A stretch of DNA of 43,798 bases from a virus. This document shows positions 8,903 to 25,533 of the stretch, piece by piece. The translations under genes were made by a program, and so were the position numbers. The notes under the pieces were generated by a model that made no database searches, was not told where the DNA came from, and saw nothing but the letters and a program-made list of their open reading frames with translations. The stretch lies in IMG/VR virus record IMGVR_UViG_3300034760_000021, positions 1-43,798 of that record. One strand, given 5' to 3'. Numbering within the stretch: the first letter of the stretch is position 1; each line of letters begins with the position of its first letter.

Positions 8903-9369
8903 TGGACCGTCGGCATACCCAGCAGGTCGTCTGCAAGGGGATTATCCGCCTCAATGGCCTTCGTAGACTGACGGCGCTTTCCGACGTCTCGAGCTTCCCC
9001 CGCTTGCGCGCGTGCGTGAAGCGCCAGGCTGCGTCGCATAGACAGGATCGTTCCCGCCAGCATTTGCACGACCTGCTTGCGCGGGTTGACGACCGGCGTT
9101 CCCTTGTCCGATTTCGCGACTGACCCTTCGGTCCGAAGATCCCACTGCTCGCGTTCCAGGTCAGCCATCGCACGAGCCAACATTGCAGCGAGCTCCAGCT
9201 GATGGTCGCTCCATTCGCTCCGTGCGAACTCGGCAATGACCGAATGCCAAAATGGCCAGTCTTCATCACCCATCCGGACATGGCCTGGAGGGGCTATTTC
9301 CTTGACCGCACCCTGCATCACGCGGACCGCGGCCGACGCGCTGTCGATGCGCTGCTTCCGGTCAGCCAT
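8899..9369 (-). CDS. Terminase small subunit (putative, P27-like)
   Basis: 156 aa from the ATG at 9369 (MADRKQRIDS), with acagga ~9 bases upstream; a TTG at 9390 is a weaker alternative. Residues ~35-75 contain an HTH-like helical segment (DWPFWHSVIAEFARSEWSD), then VNPRKQVVQMLAGTILSMRRSLAL, resembling the NP-x-x-x helix of P27-type small terminases. Assignment relies on position directly before and overlapping the large subunit plus this helical pattern. Confidence 0.7.
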   Translation of the reverse strand: MADRKQRIDSASAAVRVMQGAVKEIAPPGHVRMGDEDWPFWHSVIAEFARSEWSDHQLELAAMLARAMADLEREQWDLRTEGSVAKSDKGTPVVNPRKQVVQMLAGTILSMRRSLALHARAQAGEARDVGKRRQSTKAIEADNPLADDLLGMPTVQ

Positions 9370-9456
9370 GTCGAAATCCTGTATTAGCAAACGAATTCGA
9401 GGTGGGCGGCGGTGTCCAATATGTCGATCCCAGACTTTTTGTGGCCCGCCCCTGGC

Positions 9457-9597
9457 CTAGCCGTGGCGACCTCGCGCCTTGGGCCGGCCCGACAGGCTCT
9501 TGATCACCCTGACTAACGCTTTCACCTCGGTCAGAGCGAAGCGGCGTGAGTCTGTGCCTTCGCAGAGGTGGGGAGGAATGCCTATACAATCGGCCAT
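9457..9597 (-). CDS. Small basic protein, 46 aa
   Basis: The ATG at 9597 has AGGAG seven bases upstream and overlaps the end of the HNH gene by 16 bp. It begins MADCIGIPPHLCEG and ends with a basic RPKARGRHG tail; a helical stretch FALTEVKALVRVIKSLS lies between. The spacing and overlap fit a translated gene in the terminase leader region. Function unknown. The 87 bp between its stop and the small terminase start show nothing recognisable, although a cos site could lie there. Confidence 0.5.
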   Translation of the reverse strand: MADCIGIPPHLCEGTDSRRFALTEVKALVRVIKSLSGRPKARGRHG

Positions 9598-9860
9598 CCG
9601 TCAGCTCCTATCTCTGGTCTATGTCGCTGCCCGAACTGCTCCGCCGTGACCTGGGCATTGTGGATGCCGCATAGGTTGCGAGTGTTCTCATCCTCATCCG
9701 TGCCGCCCAATGAGAGCGGCTGGATGTGGTCGACCACAGTGGCGATGCGCGTTACACCTTGGGCTAAGCACATCTCACATAGGCCATTGGTGCGGGCTAG
9801 GCGCCTCCGCCTCTGCTCTACACCTGCCCTGCCCCTGAGGCGTTCAGCCTGCTTGGGCAT
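9582..9860 (-). CDS. HNH endonuclease beside terminase
   Basis: 92 aa. Zinc/HNH layout is CEMC at residues 28-31, DHI at 44-46 with QPLSLGG following, an Asn in TRNLC and C-x-x-HN at 64-68. This is the compact HNH type found next to the terminase in HK97 and many long-tailed phages, where it takes part in cos cleavage and packaging (established for HK97 gp74). Here it lies just upstream of the small terminase and overlaps the GIY-YIG gene, suggesting cos-type packaging. Confidence 0.85.
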   Translation of the reverse strand: MPKQAERLRGRAGVEQRRRRLARTNGLCEMCLAQGVTRIATVVDHIQPLSLGGTDEDENTRNLCGIHNAQVTAEQFGQRHRPEIGADGWPIV

Positions 9861-14459: not shown

Positions 14460-14566
14460 GCCCCTGCCCTCCTATGGGGCCGCACATAACCGTACTGCGT
14501 GCGCAGTATTTTGCGCCGATACAGGTCCCGTGACAGCCGCCAGCGAAGGATGAGCGAGCGGATCAT
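14456..14566 (-). CDS. 36-aa basic protein
   Basis: Fits between two genes with ATGA overlaps at both ends (14566 and 14459), the same coupling used throughout this region, which argues that it is translated. Starts MIRSLILRWRLSRDLY and is about one-third Arg/Lys. Function unknown; possibly nucleic-acid binding or simply a coupling peptide. Confidence 0.5.
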   Translation of the reverse strand: MIRSLILRWRLSRDLYRRKILRTQYGYVRPHRRAGA

Positions 14567-15024
14567 GCTGCCTTGGGCCCCAGCCGAGCGCGCATTGCAT
14601 CGATAGCTCTGCCGGCTTCATCCAGCGCGCCGCGCATGGCTGCCAACTCGCGATCGTCGACAGTCCCATCCTCCAGCGCGACCGACAGCTGCAGCAGCAG
14701 TTTGGTGATGCAGGAGGCGGTGGTCTGACCAACCTCTTCATCGCCCTCGAGCGGCGACAGCTTCATGCCGATCATCGCCAAGACGCGGTCAGAGAAGCGA
14801 CCATTCCAGGCACGACAGCCAAGCAGGAAAGCTGACAGCGGCATCTCGCTGATGCCCTTGGAGTAGTCCTGCGCGCGGTCTTTGCCTTTGCCGAGCTCGC
14901 GGCCGACATCCTCCCAGGTCAGTCCGTCGTCGTGACGGATCTTCGAGATGTCCTCGCCCAAGGTGTCGAGCGCGTCAGAAACGCAGAAGCTGGAATTGAC
15001 GCGGTGGATGTGCCGTTCGGTCAC
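14563..15024 (-). CDS. CII/CP76-like phage regulator (putative)
   Basis: 153 aa with a GTG start at 15024 in a GTGA overlap. An HTH-like segment is DGLTWEDVGRELGKGKDRAQ (residues ~33-52). The C-terminal part ITKLLLQLSVALEDGTVDDRE... AIDAMRARLG matches the helical tail of the phage regulatory CII (CP76) family. It stands two genes downstream of cro, where cII sits in lambdoid phages. It may activate the repressor or integrase promoters; targets not identified. Confidence 0.55.
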   Translation of the reverse strand: MTERHIHRVNSSFCVSDALDTLGEDISKIRHDDGLTWEDVGRELGKGKDRAQDYSKGISEMPLSAFLLGCRAWNGRFSDRVLAMIGMKLSPLEGDEEVGQTTASCITKLLLQLSVALEDGTVDDRELAAMRGALDEAGRAIDAMRARLGPKAA

Positions 15025-19110: not shown

Positions 19111-19292
19111 TGCGGCCCATCCTCGCAGCCAGGCATCGTCGTGACGCGGCAATCCAGGCAGCTCGCAACGAATACGAACGCGAACGCCGCAAGCTTCTCA
19201 TGGCCATGCAGGAGAAGATCGACGCTGCCGAGCGCCAGTTCATCGACGACGCGTTCCAGGGCCTTCGTGAGCCAGTTCGGAGGGCGGCATGA
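19110..19292 (+). CDS. Coiled-coil small protein, 60 aa
   Basis: Start ATG shares its A with the previous stop. Highly charged helix throughout (RRDAAIQAARNEYERERRKLL... EKIDAAERQFIDD). It lies just ahead of the Gp157-like gene and may be a partner; function unknown. Confidence 0.5.
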   Translation: MRPILAARHRRDAAIQAARNEYERERRKLLMAMQEKIDAAERQFIDDAFQGLREPVRRAA

Positions 19293-19777
19293 ACCGGATG
19301 GCGCTCACCCAAAGCCAGGTCGCCGCGGTCGCGCTCATGCTGGCCGACAGCGACGACGAGCAACTCAAGCTCGACACGCTGGAAGGTCAGACCGACCTGT
19401 TCGAGATCACCCGTTATTTGCTCGGCAAGGTAGAGGAAGACGAAGGCGTCATCTCCGCGCTTGCCGAACAGATCTCCGACCGACAGGCGCGCAAGCAGTC
19501 TGCGGAGAACCGTATCAAGCGCCGGCGCGAAGCGATGATGGCGCTCATCCAGGCCGCGAAGCTCGAGAAGCTGACGCTGCCCGAAGCAACCCTTTCAGTC
19601 CGTGCCGTGGCCCCAAAGCCTCTCGTCACGGACGAAGCCGCCGTTCCGGATGAATACTGCAAGGTCATTCGGAAGCCGGATCTTACCGCAATTAAGGCCG
19701 GGATGGAATCCGGCGCGGTGATCTCCGGCGTGTCCACCGACAACGGCGGTTACTCTTTGACCGTGAGGCGCAAATGA
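19289..19777 (+). CDS. Siphovirus Gp157-family protein
   Basis: 162 aa. N-terminal acidic helical region, a long helix EDEGVISALAEQISDRQARK..RIKRRREAMMALIQAAKLEKLTLPEATLSV, then the family signature of short strands PLVTDEAAVPDEYCKV and KPDLTAIKAGMESG, ending GVSTDNGGYSLTVRRK. Gp157 was first linked to phage resistance in Streptococcus thermophilus phage Sfi studies; in operons like this it accompanies annealing proteins. Immediately upstream of, and coupled to, the Rad52-like gene. Confidence 0.75.
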   Translation: MNRMALTQSQVAAVALMLADSDDEQLKLDTLEGQTDLFEITRYLLGKVEEDEGVISALAEQISDRQARKQSAENRIKRRREAMMALIQAAKLEKLTLPEATLSVRAVAPKPLVTDEAAVPDEYCKVIRKPDLTAIKAGMESGAVISGVSTDNGGYSLTVRRK

Positions 19778-20433
19778 CCAACCACACCGCAATTTGGGAC
19801 GCTCTGGCCAAGACCGATCCCGCGCACACCAAGCCTTTCAACCGCGCTGGCGGCTTCAAGGGCACCGCAATCAAGCCCATCTGGATCGTCAAGAAGCTGA
19901 CCGAGCAGTTCGGCCCGTGCGGCGTTGGTTGGGGTCTGTTCGAGCCAACCTTCCAAGTCGTGCCGTGCGACGGCGAGATCCTCGTCTTTTGCACCGCCTC
20001 AGGTTGGCATGGCGACCGCGCCAATGTGCTGTGGGGCGTTGGCGGCGATAAGGTCATGGCCAAGCGCAGCAGCGGCGCCTTCTGCGACGACGAGGCTTTC
20101 AAGAAGGCTTTCACCGACGCGGTCGGCAATGCCTTTAAGTTCCTAGGCGTGTCGGCCGATGTCCACATGGGCCTGTTCGACGATGACAAGTATGTCACCG
20201 CGGCACGCGAGGAGTTCCGAGAGCAGCCGGCGCAGGCAGCCAAGCCGAAAGGCCCGATCACCGACGACCAGCGCGACACGATCGCGACGATGGCACAGGG
20301 TGTTGGCGTCGACCTTCAGGTCATCTGCGACCACTACGGTATCAATAACCTGAAACAGCTAACCGCCGACAAGTACGAAGATGTCATCGGCAACCTGCGA
20401 GCGACACAGCCGCGCCAGAAGGTGGCGGCATGA
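19774..20433 (+). CDS. Rad52/ERF-like single-strand annealing protein
   Basis: 219 aa. The core IKPIWIVKKLTEQFGPCGVGWG, then VLWGVGGDKVMAKR and DDEAFKKAFTDAVGNAFKFLGVSADVHMGLFDD resembles the Rad52-superfamily (ERF/DUF1071) fold, where a final helix 'K-x-x-TDA-x-x-KA-x-x-x-LG' is typical. The C-terminal ~70 residues are a linker plus a helical tail. Likely anneals phage ssDNA for recombination and circularisation, with RusA and Ref-like nuclease as partners. Confidence 0.68.
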   Translation: MTNHTAIWDALAKTDPAHTKPFNRAGGFKGTAIKPIWIVKKLTEQFGPCGVGWGLFEPTFQVVPCDGEILVFCTASGWHGDRANVLWGVGGDKVMAKRSSGAFCDDEAFKKAFTDAVGNAFKFLGVSADVHMGLFDDDKYVTAAREEFREQPAQAAKPKGPITDDQRDTIATMAQGVGVDLQVICDHYGINNLKQLTADKYEDVIGNLRATQPRQKVAA

Positions 20434-21391: not shown

Positions 21392-21541
21392 GTGATCGAC
21401 CATGTCAGATCCGAGGACTTCGACCGCCGCCATGTTGGCAGGTTCGTCCATCGCACAAACCTTCGACTGTTCCAGATGCTGGCTGCTGTGAAGCAGAGGC
21501 AGGCGAACGAATGCACCTATGAAGTGAGGAGGGTAGCTTGA
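21392..21541 (+). CDS. 49-aa basic protein
   Basis: GTG start at 21392 with GGAG seven bases upstream. Contains VRSEDFDRRHVGRFVHRTNL and ends CTYEVRRVA. Its TGA shares a base with the ATG at 21541. Function unknown. Confidence 0.45.
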   Translation: MIDHVRSEDFDRRHVGRFVHRTNLRLFQMLAAVKQRQANECTYEVRRVA

Positions 21542-21597
21542 TGGCAGAGCTTTGCGAAACTGCTCTCCTTACCCTTGGGGGTGGTTATGAGAAGTGA
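21541..21597 (+). CDS. 18-codon leader-like peptide
   Basis: ATG at 21541 overlaps the previous stop, and the AGGAGG-like gaggag before it gives a good ribosome site. Reads MAELCETALLTLGGGYEK then stop, 11 bp inside the next gene. Could be a coupling or leader peptide, or an accident. Confidence 0.3.
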   Translation: MAELCETALLTLGGGYEK

Positions 21598-22231
21598 GGC
21601 TGGGCGCGTGCCTTTGGCACCGGGCTCTCGTGAACCGAGCCCTTCGGTCTCGGCCGCAAGCGGCTTCGATCCCTCGCGCAGCAAGCTGCAGGCCGCCGTC
21701 GAAGCTGGGAGGGAACAGGGCAAGCTGGCACTGTTCTTCGGCGCTGATCCGATCGGACATTATCTGCACCATCCGAACCACGGGACACTATGGGACGCGC
21801 AGAGAGCCATACCGGGATTTCCGTGGTCGACCGCTCTGCTAGACACAGGACTCCTGAAAAACGGCAAACGCGCCGACGTCTATGACGGCAAGGTGTTTTG
21901 GACCTGCGGGGGCCGCGTGTTTTGGTACGCGTTTTTCTGGTGGGACCGTTCCGGCGACAGTCGCGGTGCTTCCAACTCTGGGTTTTACGTGCGCGGTTTT
22001 GGCTGGCCGGAGACCTCAGCAGCCTTTGAGTATGCCTGCGCGCAGTTCCCGCGCATTGTCGCGCGTCAGAAAAATCCACTGATCCTGCAACACCCGCGCG
22101 ATAGGGATGGCAGCGCCGAAGGCGGCGAGACGGGTACCGGCTCGACCGAAGGCAACAGCCCGGGCCGTAAGGCATCGCCCGAACCTTCTCTCAACCCCTC
22201 TCCTAACAACACTACTAAGGGGGGAGATTAG
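21587..22231 (+). CDS. Hypothetical protein, 214 aa
   Basis: ATG at 21587; TTG at 21575 is an alternative. The centre looks like a folded domain: LALFFGADPIGHYLHHPNHG, FPWSTALLDTGLLKNGKR, VFWYAFFWWDRSGDSRG. The C-terminus (GSAEGGETGTGSTEG...) is disordered. Codons ~13-29 coincide with a copy of the dispersed hairpin element, so the true N-terminus is uncertain. No family recognised. Confidence 0.55.
   Translation: MRSEAGRVPLAPGSREPSPSVSAASGFDPSRSKLQAAVEAGREQGKLALFFGADPIGHYLHHPNHGTLWDAQRAIPGFPWSTALLDTGLLKNGKRADVYDGKVFWTCGGRVFWYAFFWWDRSGDSRGASNSGFYVRGFGWPETSAAFEYACAQFPRIVARQKNPLILQHPRDRDGSAEGGETGTGSTEGNSPGRKASPEPSLNPSPNNTTKGGD
21624..21671 (+). repeat. Dispersed hairpin element, copy A
   Basis: GCTCTCG ... 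GAGCC ... GGTCTCGGC ... GGCTTCGATC. Hairpins GGGCTC/GAGCCC (from 21622) and GCCGC-AA-GCGGC. Related copies at 22265 and 25090 keep the same blocks and pairing but different stem bases. Confidence 0.55.
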
Positions 22232-22233
22232 AG

Positions 22234-22344
22234 ATGAAGGTATGGACGACCCTTCGGGCAACCTGCTCTCGCCTACGGTCGAGCCCCTACGGGTCTCGCC
22301 GGCCTTCGGCCGCTTCGATCAGGCGTATGGGAGAACGGCAATGA
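22234..22344 (+). CDS. 36-aa Arg/Ser-rich peptide before xis
   Basis: ATG at 22234 with GGGGGAG upstream; ends in an ATGA overlap with xis. Sequence is low complexity (RSSPYGSRRPSAASIRRMG) and mostly encoded by hairpin element copy B. Its value may be only to couple translation to xis. Confidence 0.35.
   Translation: MKVWTTLRATCSRLRSSPYGSRRPSAASIRRMGERQ
22265..22320 (+). repeat. Dispersed hairpin element, copy B
   Basis: GCTCTCG ... TCGAGCC ... GGGTCTCGCC ... CGCTTCGATC. Three stem-loops: CTCG-CC-TAC-GG-TCGAG, CGAGCCC-CTAC-GGG-TCTCG and CGGCC-TTC-GGCCG. Immediately upstream of xis. Confidence 0.6.
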
Positions 22345-22667
22345 ACGCCCCTCGCCCCTTCAGCCCCGAGACCCTGGCAGAGCGCTGGGATTGCTCGGCT
22401 GAAAAGGTTCGGCGTATGTACCACGACGGCGAAATTGCCGGCTTCAGACTTGGCAAACTCATCCGCATCCCTGCGGCCGAAGTGGAACGCTACGAATGTC
22501 AGACGAATACCGCCTTGGAAAGCACCGAGGAAAATACAGCCTCGTCTACACAGACCCGGAGCGAGGCCGCGTTCGAGTCGCGCTTGGAACGCCTGACCTT
22601 GGCGAAGCCGAGTCCCGAGCGCGAGCCATTTGGGCGCGTCGCACAGCCGCACCGACAGACCGCGTAG
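22341..22667 (+). CDS. xis: Excisionase-like MerR/HTH_17 protein
   Basis: 108 aa, ATG at 22341 with GGGAG seven bases before it. Residues 7-55 are a winged-helix excisionase domain: FSPETLAERWDCSAEKVRRMYHDGEIAGFRL, then KLIRIPAAEVERYE. The C-terminal half (Ser/Thr/Glu-rich) is translated from DNA that overlaps the integrase start by 172 bp in another frame. Directs excision with the integrase. Confidence 0.8.
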   Translation: MNAPRPFSPETLAERWDCSAEKVRRMYHDGEIAGFRLGKLIRIPAAEVERYECQTNTALESTEENTASSTQTRSEAAFESRLERLTLAKPSPEREPFGRVAQPHRQTA

Positions 22668-23473
22668 ACGACCTGTGGGCAGCCTATGTCACGAACCGCA
22701 AGAAGCACGCAGTCCGCAAGGATCGCTTCGATCCGCTATGGAAGGCGCTCGGGCCTTTCTTCGGCCACAAGCTGGGACCGGCGATCACCGCGGAGGACTG
22801 CGAAGCCTATTACAAGGTTCGGAACCGCGAGGGCATGTCCGACAGCACGATCAAGACGGAACTGGAATTCCTGCGCGCCTGCCTCGTTCACAAGTACGGC
22901 AAGGGCAAGACGCCGAAGCTCTGGCTTCCCCCGGCGTCGAAGCCGCGCGATCGGTACCTGACCAAGGAAGAAGCGCGCGAGCTGGTCGACGCTATCGAGA
23001 CGCCGCATGTGAAGCTGTTCGTGGAACTGGCGCTCGCGACTGGGGCGCGCATGTCGGCAATCCTGGACCTGACATGGGACCGCGTGGATCTAAAGCGGCG
23101 CACGGCCGACTTCCGCCCCGCTGGTCGACATCAGACGAACAAGCGCCGCACCATCGTGCCACTGAACGACCGCGCCTTCCGAGCCATCGAGGTGGCGCAC
23201 AAGGGCGCGCTGACGGACTATGTGATCGAGTATGCCGGCCAGCCTGTAAAGAGCGTCAAGAAGGCCATCAGGGCCGCGGCGGCGCGTTCGGGCATTCCGG
23301 TGAGCCCGCATGTCTTTCGGCACACAGCGGGCGTCTGGATGGCGGAAGCGGATCTGCCGATGGCGAAGGTCGCGCAGTACCTGGGGCACACTTCCAGTCG
23401 AATCACGGAGCAGGTGTACGCCCGGTACAGCCCCTCGTTTCAGCGCGATTCGGCAAGCGCTTTGGAATTCTGA
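22496..23473 (+). CDS. int: Tyrosine recombinase integrase
   Basis: 325 aa from the ATG at 22496. Short N-terminal arm-binding part, core-binding SAM-like domain ~55-150, catalytic domain from ~155. Active-site residues: Arg185 in GARMSAILDLTW, a Lys near 215-217 (TNKRRTIVPL), His272-x-x-Arg275 in HVFRHTAG, His298 in LGHTS, Tyr308 in EQVYARY. The attP core follows 70 bp downstream. Expressed from the CI-controlled rightward operon together with xis. Confidence 0.95.
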   Translation: MSDEYRLGKHRGKYSLVYTDPERGRVRVALGTPDLGEAESRARAIWARRTAAPTDRVDDLWAAYVTNRKKHAVRKDRFDPLWKALGPFFGHKLGPAITAEDCEAYYKVRNREGMSDSTIKTELEFLRACLVHKYGKGKTPKLWLPPASKPRDRYLTKEEARELVDAIETPHVKLFVELALATGARMSAILDLTWDRVDLKRRTADFRPAGRHQTNKRRTIVPLNDRAFRAIEVAHKGALTDYVIEYAGQPVKSVKKAIRAAAARSGIPVSPHVFRHTAGVWMAEADLPMAKVAQYLGHTSSRITEQVYARYSPSFQRDSASALEF

Positions 23474-23543
23474 TGGTTCCTTGTTGCCAACCGAACCCCT
23501 CGGAAGTAAGGTTCGATATGGCACAAATTCCGCAGTTTTCCGG

Positions 23544-23590
23544 TGGTGGGCGCTACAGGACTCGAACCTGTGACCCTCTCGGTGTAAACG
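23544..23590 (-). other. attP core: 3' half of tRNA-Val(UAC)
   Basis: Read on the minus strand this is CGTTTACACCGAGAGGGTC, then the T-arm ACAGG-TTCGAGT-CCTGT, then AGCGCCCACCA: anticodon loop TTTACAC with UAC, variable loop, T-arm, 3' acceptor arm and CCA. The 5' half of a tRNA is absent beyond 23590, as expected for a phage core that restores the host gene's 3' end on integration. A GGAGG-ccccgt-CCTCC hairpin follows at once (23590-23605). Confidence 0.8.
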
Positions 23591-23683
23591 GAGGCCCCGT
23601 CCTCCAAACTGCCATTTTCTATCCAACCACTAAGGCGATTTCCCCGCTCTGCGCCGGTTATGTTCTGGTTGCGTTCAATGGGG

Positions 23684-23700
23684 TGGTACAGACTGGTACA
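23684..23700 (+). repeat. Direct repeats near attP
   Basis: TGGTACA at 23684-23690 and again at 23694-23700, exactly 10 bp apart, about 100 bp from the core. Same-face spacing suggests integrase arm-type or excisionase sites; this is inference from position. Confidence 0.4.
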
Positions 23701-23726
23701 CCCGAACCTCTCGGGAGACCAGCCCT

Positions 23727-23915
23727 GTGTCTTTAGAAAACGAGCGTGGCCTGCTCGGCCCTATCGGAGGCTGGTTTAGCAGCCTCTGGAATCTACGCAT
23801 CTTCGGGGCTCTTCAGATCGCGGCGATGCTGGTCTTTTGGAACATGGACCGCGCAGCTGCCGCGTGGCTGGCATTTTACCTTGTGCTTTGCGCCGACTGG
23901 AGACCGCGCCAATGA
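23727..23915 (+). CDS. Small membrane protein, 62 aa
   Basis: GTG start at 23727 with GGGAG upstream. Hydrophobic spans ~24-38 and ~43-56 (WLAFYLVLCADW). First gene beyond attP, so it lies at the edge of an integrated prophage. ATGA overlap with the next gene. Function unknown. Confidence 0.5.
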   Translation: MSLENERGLLGPIGGWFSSLWNLRIFGALQIAAMLVFWNMDRAAAAWLAFYLVLCADWRPRQ

Positions 23916-24118
23916 CCCAAGCAAGCATTCCGCTCAAAACGGAACTCGTCAGCTACCGGTACGATCGCGGCTGTATGTGCGGCCCGGAAGGCCGGATGCG
24001 CCCAACGGGCTTAACGCTCCTTACCGACCCGCCTAGATACCCGCACAAGTGCACCGCCTGCGGCCGCGAGGAAACCTTTCTCGTCTCCTACCCCTACTTG
24101 GGACACGAGCCGGCATGA
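23912..24118 (+). CDS. Zinc-binding small protein, 68 aa
   Basis: Contains CMCGPEGRM and, later, YPHKCTACGREETFLVSYP: two Cys pairs forming a probable zinc ribbon. ATGA at both ends. Widespread type in small phage operons; function unknown. Confidence 0.55.
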   Translation: MTQASIPLKTELVSYRYDRGCMCGPEGRMRPTGLTLLTDPPRYPHKCTACGREETFLVSYPYLGHEPA

Positions 24119-24501
24119 TTGCGCTTCTGAAGCGGCTGACCTGCCGTCACCCCAACTGGCGCATCTTCTACTGCCTGGATGCGGGGTCGTTCCGGTTGGA
24201 TCCGAAGAGAGTGGACGTTCTTGCGGTGCGCTATTGCCTCCGCTGCGGAGCTATGCGCGCCGACAGCCGGTCGAGCAGCACCCCGCGGAACGAAGAACCC
24301 GCTGCTGGAGATAGCTGGATAACGGTCCCACCCGGCGTCACGGGCTTTGCTGCTGGTGACGCTATCGGGAAGCTGGAGCGCTACGAGGCTGCGCTGCGCA
24401 ATGTAGAGGCACTCGGTCACGGCAGCGGACCCGGCTTCGGCTTCTCGTGCGCAGAGATAGCCGCGGAAGCTTTGGGGCTACCCTTAAGGAGGAAGGAATG
24501 A
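24115..24501 (+). CDS. Hypothetical protein, 128 aa
   Basis: Begins MIALLKRLTCRHPNWRIFYC; YCLRCGAMRAD gives a partial zinc knuckle. The C-terminal half (AIGKLERYEAALRNVEALGHG... FSCAEIAAEALGLPL) is a helical module seen in other phage proteins. No assigned function. Confidence 0.5.
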   Translation: MIALLKRLTCRHPNWRIFYCLDAGSFRLDPKRVDVLAVRYCLRCGAMRADSRSSSTPRNEEPAAGDSWITVPPGVTGFAAGDAIGKLERYEAALRNVEALGHGSGPGFGFSCAEIAAEALGLPLRRKE

Positions 24502-24710
24502 GACGCGCACTTATAGCGGTCGGTCTACTCGTGGCGTTTTTCGCAGTGGTTGCTCTCTACATGGCGATCTGCGTCGGAGCGATGTTGCTGACCGGCTCAC
24601 CCGCCGTCATCATGATCCCCGCTGGGTGCTTAGTGCTCTGGGGTGCCTGGGGTGCGGCGGGTGACTTCATCAAGCACCCACCCGCTTGGCCATGGAGGGC
24701 TCGGCGGTGA
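24498..24710 (+). CDS. Two-span membrane protein, 70 aa
   Basis: ATG at 24498 with AAGGAGGAAGGA upstream, the strongest ribosome site in this stretch. Transmembrane spans ~4-32 and ~34-54, Trp/Arg-rich tail. Overlaps neighbours by ATGA and GTGA. Possible superinfection or envelope function; unproven. Confidence 0.55.
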   Translation: MRRALIAVGLLVAFFAVVALYMAICVGAMLLTGSPAVIMIPAGCLVLWGAWGAAGDFIKHPPAWPWRARR

Positions 24711-25015
24711 CCGGCACCGTGTTGCAGCGCATCCGTGAACGGCCGAACGACAGCCCATTGCACGCCGAGTTCCTAATGGATGACGCTGGCGATTTGATCG
24801 AGCAACTCCAATCCGCCTTGGTTGGGATGCTTCGGGTCGCCGACTGGGGCGCTGAGGACAGCGCAGAGGCTACGACAGCTCGCGCTTTGCTGGAAAGATG
24901 TGGTGTTAATCCGTGGGGCGCCGCAGCCGCGCCAGTCGATACCCACCCGCAGGGCGGAGACGCCGTAGCGGCTCCGTTCATGGGTAGCGCGGTCGACGAA
25001 GTCGAGGCGCCCTAA
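24707..25015 (+). CDS. Hypothetical protein, 102 aa
   Basis: GTG at 24707 chosen for the GTGA overlap and GGAGGG six to ten bases upstream; an ATG at 24692 is possible. Helical (VLQRIRERPNDSP... DDAGDLIEQLQSALVGML), Ala/Gly/Pro-rich end. No family recognised. Confidence 0.5.
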   Translation: MTGTVLQRIRERPNDSPLHAEFLMDDAGDLIEQLQSALVGMLRVADWGAEDSAEATTARALLERCGVNPWGAAAAPVDTHPQGGDAVAAPFMGSAVDEVEAP

Positions 25016-25168
25016 ATGTCTGTGATCCTTCTCACCCTAGCCGCCATAATCCAGAAAGAGGTTGGGCGATTGCGCTTACGCGCACCGTCGCTCTCGCCCT
25101 TCGGGTCGAGCCAGTCTGCGCTGTCTCGCCGCTACGCGCTTCGATCAACTATCGCTAGGAGGTTCTGA
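25016..25168 (+). CDS. 50-aa peptide spanning repeat copy C
   Basis: ATG at 25016, one base after the previous stop; ends TGATG into the next gene. N-terminus MSVILLTLAAIIQKE is hydrophobic; the rest (SLSPFGSSQSALSRRY) is encoded by the hairpin element. Likely a remnant or coupling ORF created by insertion of the element. Confidence 0.35.
   Translation: MSVILLTLAAIIQKEVGRLRLRAPSLSPFGSSQSALSRRYALRSTIARRF
25090..25146 (+). repeat. Dispersed hairpin element, copy C
   Basis: GCTCTCG-CCCTTCGGG-TCGAGCC ... GTCTCGCC-GCTACGC-GCTTCGATCA. The first stem is CTCG-CCC-TTC-GGG-TCGAG; the last is CGC-TAC-GCG. Same block order as copies A and B. Confidence 0.6.
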
Positions 25169-25533
25169 TGGGCTACAATACGGCATTGATGATCTGCAAC
25201 GACGGACTTGAGCAGCTTCGTCGCGACCCGAACGCAGCAGAGAAGATCTACCAGGGCGTGCTCGCTGCCGGAAGCCGAGCCGAAAACTGGGTCTCCATCG
25301 GCAATCACTGCAACCTTGTCAGCATCCTGCCAAGCCAGCACGCCGACGTGTCACAGGTGGTGCTGGTCGGCGGCAATAGTATCGAAGCCGTCCATAGCCT
25401 CTACGGCGTCATAGACTGGCACGAGACGGACGAGCCCTTTGCAGAGCAGGTTCTCCGCGCGCTCGCCCACGACCTTGGGTACAATCTGACCAAGACGGCG
25501 TGGCGCAAGAGGCGGGATGCCAAAGCGGCATGA
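25168..25533 (+). CDS. Hypothetical protein, 121 aa
   Basis: ATG at 25168 preceded by AGGAGG. Begins MGYNTALMICNDGLEQLRRD; contains NWVSIGNHCNLVSILPSQHAD and VLVGGNSIEAVHSLYGVID, and ends with the basic KTAWRKRRDAKAA. Small alpha/beta protein found sporadically in phages; no activity known. ATGA overlap with the nuclease gene. Confidence 0.6.
   Translation: MGYNTALMICNDGLEQLRRDPNAAEKIYQGVLAAGSRAENWVSIGNHCNLVSILPSQHADVSQVVLVGGNSIEAVHSLYGVIDWHETDEPFAEQVLRALAHDLGYNLTKTAWRKRRDAKAA

Follow-up and report, generated by a model that had tools for sequence, protein, structure and literature searches.

What is the short palindromic element that recurs in different reading frames near the xis and integrase genes of the virus record IMGVR_UViG_3300034760_000021, and on which strand does it act? 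The whole 43,798-nt stretch of this record was analysed (hereafter the window), in which an earlier note had described three dispersed copies of a hairpin element with compensating stem changes, interpreted as either a structured RNA or a miniature palindromic mobile element. The data presented here provide good support for a folded single-strand DNA structure, not an RNA. The function that we favour, at roughly even chances, is that of a single-strand initiation (ssi, priming) signal, recognised by host proteins and reused at the ends of phage gene cassettes.

Copies in the window and their common fold

The ordered sequence blocks that defined the element were confirmed at 21624-21671, 22265-22320 and 25090-25146, and a regular expression for these blocks matched the window exactly three times, with no match in 200 dinucleotide shuffles or in the reversed window. 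Copies are also found well beyond this record: a degenerate pattern detected at least 119 stretches in IMG/VR, and 249 copies, spread over 96 loci that stem almost entirely from that scan, were recovered with a covariance model (R1). The training set of R1 included three of the five window copies. A second model (R2), with a structure computed by RNAalifold, was built from other phage contigs only and contained none of them; it recovered all three reported copies plus two on the minus strand, with bit scores of 43 to 74 and E-values that are rough owing to a shortened calibration.

The window thus holds five copies, three on the plus and two on the minus strand. Measured from outer stem to outer stem, copy A (21604..21679, +; R2 match 21598-21685, 74.1 bits, E 7.6e-15), copy C (22246..22326, +; R2 match 22240-22332, 43.1 bits, E 1.3e-7) and copy E (25066..25155, +; R2 match 25060-25161, 70.1 bits, E 6.4e-14) correspond to the first, second and third copies described earlier. 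Copy B (22098..22178, −; R2 match 22092-22184, 70.8 bits, E 4.3e-14) and copy D (24929..25010, −; R2 match 24923-25016, 44.1 bits, E 7.9e-8) had been overlooked, and both are absent from every training set. Taken with wider bounds, the R2 matches are 21588-21685 (A), 22092-22194 (B), 22230-22332 (C), 24923-25026 (D) and 25050-25161 (E). Copies A and B are located within the 5' and 3' ends, respectively, of one plus-strand open reading frame (ORF) at 21575..22231, B being inverted relative to A. Copy C lies between this ORF and a xis-like gene, copy D within the 3' end of a small ORF (24692..25015, +), and copy E immediately upstream of an ORF with its start at 25168. The statement that copies occupy different reading frames is correct, and many are open in all three.

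The element spans about 80 bases and is longer than first described, since it also includes an outer stem, GCGNN/N'N'CGC, and an additional side hairpin. One architecture is common to more than 240 copies in phage contigs, consisting of the outer stem, the side hairpin and a four-way junction made by P3, P4, P5 and P6. Read 5' to 3' on the written strand, it comprises P1 (GCGNN), the side hairpin P2, P3 (two variable bases followed by GCTC), the hairpin P4, P5 (CGAG, an inner hairpin, CTCG), the hairpin P6, the segment CTTC, and finally the 3' sides of P3 (GATC) and P1 (N'N'CGC). Covariation was computed on a sequence-only MAFFT alignment, and the same architecture was recovered automatically without the window in model R2. 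The compensating changes are genuine, with 290 double-change cells as compared to 100 in column shuffles, and 90.8% of cells were paired, versus 33-44% when the partners were slid. P1 positions occur with the pairs CG, AT, TA and GC, the innermost P3 pair occurs as CG, TA or GC, and P5 (CGAG/CTCG) has the variants GGAG/CTCC, CAAG/CTTG, TGAG/CTCA and CGCG/CGCG. Variation is underestimated in P3, P5 and the joining segments, parts of which were kept constant in the first search patterns.

DNA or RNA, and the strand that folds

The nature of the folded molecule is indicated by the pairs themselves. In a structure-fitted alignment of 150 copies (P1, P3, P5, P6 and the inner P4 pair), 2779 cells were Watson-Crick, 8 G-T and 13 A-C; the G-T share, 8 of 2841 helix cells or 0.28%, contrasts with 10.2% G-U in the tRNAs of the same contigs. 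An unfitted alignment agrees, with 1037 Watson-Crick, 12 G-T and 16 A-C cells. The closing pair of P4 is the one exception as regards wobble (GC 89, GT 53), and it may not be a true pair. Nor does one strand prevail with respect to the genes, as tailed-phage copies lie sense to the local genes in 71 cases and antisense in 67.

The loops point in the same direction. On the written strand TNC and TNNC loops predominate, usually with a closing C-G pair (130 of 149 hairpins for P6, 110 of 138 for P2, 93 of 148 for P4 and 78 of 144 for the inner hairpin of P5), and GNA never occurs; on the reverse-complement strand these loops consequently read as C-GNA-G or C-GNNA-G. According to Hirao and co-workers, DNA mini-hairpins with GNA and GNNA loops are exceptionally stable (PMC4686876). 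The sequence of the written strand would also allow an RNA UNCG tetraloop; this was rejected because, of 313 cases, 308 had stems in the triloop register and 4 in that of UNCG. Likewise, when folded as single-stranded DNA the reverse-complement strand performed better than the written strand in five of the five copies tested, and the fold predicted for the reverse complement of a copy from plasmid F contains P1, P2, P5 and P6 (z −2.5).

Known RNA motifs were also sought. No Rfam family reached its gathering score in the window, nothing related was found at E<=10 in 21500-25300, and 16 further element-bearing loci gave nothing related at E<=1. An int-alpA or other Rfam motif, considered because of the position before xis and int, gave no match, and most xis and int relatives are without the element; an RNA attenuator with alternative CTCG/CGAG pairings was ruled out by the wobble, strand and loop tests. 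In combination, wobble, strand use and loop type leave the structured RNA of the earlier note unsupported.

Placement in plasmids, chromosomes and phages

In conjugative plasmids, F among them, the element lies in the region that is transferred first. The direction of the transferred strand (T-strand) was inferred from the layout of relaxase, origin of transfer (oriT) and leading region. F carries two copies (58077-58178 and 63465-63566), which form the starting edge of a duplicated 548-bp block, 90% identical, that stops just before ssb and ygeA; the operons of these two genes are driven by the single-stranded promoters Frpo2 and Frpo1, respectively (PMC9849209). In our F locus (L224) the duplicates span 9082-9622 and 14470-15012, or about 58081-58621 and 63469-64011 of F, and their left edge coincides with the element; across these Frpo1/Frpo2 modules the element and the far end are conserved and the central Frpo hairpin has diverged. 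Two copies were likewise found in R100, three each in R46, Pseudomonas p918607 and a Winslowiella IncF plasmid, and five in Massilia WG5. As judged from where the relaxase, stb and leading-region genes lie (for R100 and Winslowiella, from likeness to F), the reverse complement is on the transferred strand in 18 of 18 copies from the six plasmids, which amount to about four independent lineages because F, R100 and the Winslowiella plasmid are related. An F-type copy is present in 2243 of 5426 complete E. coli genomes, and 4740 of its 4800 places are on plasmids.

Alphaproteobacterial chromosomes contributed 94 loci with 97 copies. The next relevant same-strand gene, assigned by Pfam, encodes ArdC in 58 cases and a ParB-like protein in 10, and a downstream ArdC or ParB-like gene was on the same strand 68 times and on the opposite strand never; 24 copies had neither gene and 5 were too near a contig or locus end. 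From these genes we infer that the loci are integrated conjugative elements. The element was carried by 17 of 299 sampled genomes of the phylum. One genome, Bradyrhizobium nitroreducens TSA1, holds 14 copies, several of them paired about 5 or 9 kb apart, which suggests several related integrated elements.

Among single-stranded DNA phages, the Microviridae KT264808, MH572438, PQ006853 and one contig (L320) have one intergenic copy each, which in every case is opposite in strand to the genes; the virion strand accordingly carries the reverse complement in four of four cases. The copy in the gokushovirus KT264808 lies directly after VP1, in a place similar to that of the annotated complementary-strand origin of G4, which also follows the capsid gene (gene F).

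Tailed phages of alphaproteobacteria carry 1 to 16 copies per contig, placed here relative to gene calls from a simple codon-score script, the output of which was in good agreement with the annotation deposited for phage VSN-002. Where two neighbouring copies lie within 3 kb of each other, they tend to be on opposite strands (62 opposite vs 16 same, p 1.5e-7). Inside genes, sense copies are at the 5' end in 19 cases and at the 3' end in 2, and antisense copies at the 3' end in 38 and at the 5' end in 1 (Fisher p 2e-12); the 3' side of the element thus faces the gene. Convergent pairs enclose one ORF spanning from element to element in 25 of 33 cases, compared with 14.7% of random windows, and the enclosed ORFs, which by eye include methyltransferase-like and deaminase-like proteins, are mutually unrelated (no tblastx pairs). 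In one contig (L009) a whole unit occupies the place where three relatives have an unrelated, element-free ORF, between flanks that are approximately 90-100% and 89% identical; no target-site duplication was seen at this exchange. In tailed phages the element can be exchanged together with the small ORF that it brackets.

The window ORF at 21575..22231, between copies A (+) and B (−), is one such element-flanked cassette; it had no match in Pfam or PHROGs. Downstream of copy C follow the xis-like gene (22341..22667, +; HTH_17, Pfam PF12728, E 5e-7) and a tyrosine integrase (22496..23473, +; Pfam PF00589, E 5e-26), by means of which relatives both carrying and lacking the element were identified. 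Only 9 of 80 integrase relatives had any copy, and upstream of xis the element was present in 1 of 11 inspected relatives, the other ten having gene-to-gene junctions too tight for it. The element is accordingly dispersed and comes and goes at gene junctions, in agreement with the earlier description. The empty site of a single copy was sought via its flanks, which matched only contigs carrying the same copy.

Some further observations concern these phages. A nucleotide search with the whole 21.5-25.3 kb region in phages gave a single distant match, in the integrase region; the human faecal phage record MT836451.1 matches the xis-integrase region of the window at 68% identity. Directly 3' of the integrase gene, a low-scoring tRNA match (23547-23613, −; 18.7 bits) resembles part of tRNA-Val(TAC) and is probably the phage attachment site. 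Upstream of the elements, a recombination module at 19289-20433 encodes a Mu Gam-like end-protection protein followed by an exonuclease/recombinase-like PHROG protein. Sphingopyxis phage VSN-002 (L231 11188-18658) has four copies, and ERF, YqaJ, NinB and a telomere resolvase are encoded among them. A partial match in PP496355.1 (22049-22107), a record named as a Microcystis phage, stands out for an otherwise Pseudomonadota-bound element; this phage may in truth infect a bacterium associated with Microcystis.

A proposed priming signal and the alternatives

For the favoured ssi signal the following sequence of events can be proposed. When the region becomes single-stranded, the strand complementary to the written element would fold into the outer stem, side hairpin and four-way junction, with arms mostly capped by C-GNA-G or C-GNNA-G DNA mini-hairpins. 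A host priming factor (candidates are the PriA primosome, DnaG primase and RNA polymerase) would recognise the folded strand, and synthesis of the complementary strand would start there and proceed the way the element points. For conjugative plasmids and integrated elements this would mean that the incoming transferred strand begins to be converted ahead of the early antirestriction genes, and in F synthesis from the element would traverse Frpo and the early genes and would shut Frpo off. In Microviridae the element would serve as complementary-strand origin. Tailed alphaproteobacterial phages carry many copies, often as inward-facing inverted pairs at both ends of small, exchangeable ORFs.

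A location on the strand that is single-stranded in vivo, as expected of an ssi site, was found for all 18 plasmid copies, given the gene layout, and for all four Microviridae copies. Recognition of the folded single strand by the host is suggested by this fixed orientation to the entering strand in two very different kinds of replicon, by the position in Microviridae and by the lack of an obvious protein shared between phages and plasmids. A ParB-like leading-region protein was considered as the binder; element-bearing phages and Microviridae would need it too, which makes a host factor likelier. Priming is preferred over early transcription since it fits both kinds of replicon, while transcription in Microviridae would be antisense and useless. 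The characteristic positions and the single orientation in plasmids, chromosomal leading-region loci and Microviridae point to a function, and the miniature mobile element proposed at the outset is in consequence only part of the story.

Several observations weigh against a priming signal. The support is wholly computational; the T-strand directions come from gene layout, and the relatedness of F, R100 and the Winslowiella plasmid leaves about four independent plasmid lineages. Among 80 close Microviridae relatives the element was present in only one, and the inverted pairs in tailed double-stranded DNA phages lack an explanation. The folding energy of single copies is unremarkable (z −0.1 to −1.7, written strand), and the case consequently rests on covariation. 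Finally, phiX174, G4, alpha3 and ColIb-P9 are without the element, phiX174 giving no model match at E<=1 and G4 and alpha3 only chance-level scores. All four have known priming or single-stranded DNA promoter sites, and the absence of the element from them indicates that it is not one of the known ssi types.

The same placement data bear on the alternatives. In tailed phages the inverted elements could mark the ends of small mobile ORF units; a recombinase or transposase acting in trans would recognise their folded single strands, and the plasmid copies would be relics or landing sites. The strand alternation, the single ORF in most convergent pairs, the unrelatedness of the enclosed ORFs and the exchange in L009 all agree with this. 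A transposon or miniature inverted-repeat transposable element (MITE) would have inverted ends around a unit that moves as a whole; what was observed are inverted pairs around one ORF and one clear exchange of a whole unit, that in L009, which may reflect no more than the usual mosaicism of phages at gene borders and showed no target-site duplication. No shared recombinase and no transposase turned up, no systematic search for the former and no search for the latter having been made, and single one-way copies in plasmids and Microviridae are unlike cassette termini; we regard such recombinase-driven cassette ends as unlikely. The element could instead be a selfish palindromic repeat tolerated at gene ends and functionless for its carrier. 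It is dispersed, palindromic, readable through in any frame and patchy among both integrase relatives and sampled genomes; nevertheless, long-term covariation, conserved junction bases, DNA-specific loop types, the fixed orientation to the entering strand and the uniform same-strand placement before ArdC and ParB-like genes would be unexpected, which makes a functionless repeat quite unlikely.

Transcription offers two more explanations. In a single-stranded DNA promoter like Frpo, the folded strand would serve RNA polymerase as the starting point for early transcripts of the gene downstream, in keeping with the sense, upstream position before leading-region genes in F and chromosomal loci and with the Frpo-carrying duplicated block of F that starts at the element (PMC9849209). 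Yet Frpo is a separate long hairpin in that block, approximately 100 nt downstream in the T-strand fold, ColIb-P9 has ssi promoters and lacks the element, a transcript in Microviridae would be antisense to all genes, and many phage ORFs begin before the element; a promoter role appears quite improbable. A cis-acting RNA (attenuator, antiterminator or riboswitch-like leader) of phage or plasmid operons would account for a covarying fold that lies sense to and upstream of genes in F and chromosomal loci, and structured sequences of undefined mechanism do precede the establishment operons of pLS20 (PMC8708921). The near absence of G-U pairs and the 67 of 138 phage copies antisense to genes already make this explanation fail, the loops fit DNA triloops of the other strand, not RNA UNCG tetraloops, and Rfam had no match in the window or the 16 further loci; a cis-acting RNA is accordingly most improbable. 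An extension of the ssi signal is also conceivable, if rather doubtful, in which the element also forms the ends of mobile gene cassettes of a new class. With a plus-strand element before the ORF and a minus-strand element after it, both strands have a folded signal close to their 3' end, so that either strand alone could be copied into a complete double-stranded gene, and small phage genes could move via single-stranded intermediates without a transposase of their own.

Comparison with described systems places the element close to, and apart from, several of them. Primosome assembly and other ssi sites and G4-type origins (phiX174, G4, alpha3, and the plasmids F, R100, R6K and ColE) are likewise short structured one-way single-stranded DNA signals on the entering strand; the element differs from the phiX174 and G4-type origins in its four-way junction, its GNA/GNNA loops and its many copies in tailed double-stranded DNA phages. 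Some Rickettsia palindromic elements (RPEs) lie within ORFs. Together with repetitive extragenic palindromic (REP) sequences and Br-REP1 and Br-REP2 (PMC5082802) they resemble the element as palindromic alphaproteobacterial repeats, and in contrast to all of these the element has a covarying, conserved multi-helix architecture, ties to mobile elements and a constant orientation in replicons with a single-stranded DNA stage. Frpo1 and Frpo2 of F share with it the duplicated block, the leading-region genes and, as proposed, the transferred strand (PMC9849209, PMC11541004). Frpo is a 328-bp hairpin region with −35 and −10 boxes and the element a separate 80-nt module at the other end of the block; with arms of only a few bp the element lacks such a long promoter hairpin, which in F is the neighbouring structure. 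EGeRS1 of pLS20 (PMC8708921), likened to the element by description, is also multi-copy, structured and upstream of ardC and other establishment genes, and differs in being Gram-positive, 420-750 bp long and oriented with the non-template strand as transferred strand. Integron attC sites, including those of phages (PMC9892861), are folded single-stranded DNA sites beside single-ORF phage cassettes; attC pairs are direct and those of the element inverted, and attC was rejected as the R boxes are absent (GTTRRRY in 14 of 144 copies, RYYYAAC in 0 of 144). In the literature covered, which excluded subscription papers such as Nomura 1991, the element was found described neither as a primosome site nor in phage cassettes or ahead of ardC, and it is apparently undescribed. 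Should a plasmid ssi site of Nomura 1991 prove identical to it, the site would already be known, and what is new would be the family, its structure and its distribution among phages.

One DNA structure thus links F-type plasmids, alphaproteobacterial chromosomal ardC/parB-like leading-region loci, single-stranded DNA phages and tailed phages. The place and time at which strand conversion begins in conjugation have been described as unclear (PMC9849209); if the incoming strand is primed at the element, both would become directly testable. The inverted pairs that flank unrelated small genes of tailed phages would represent a new way of packaging exchangeable genes.

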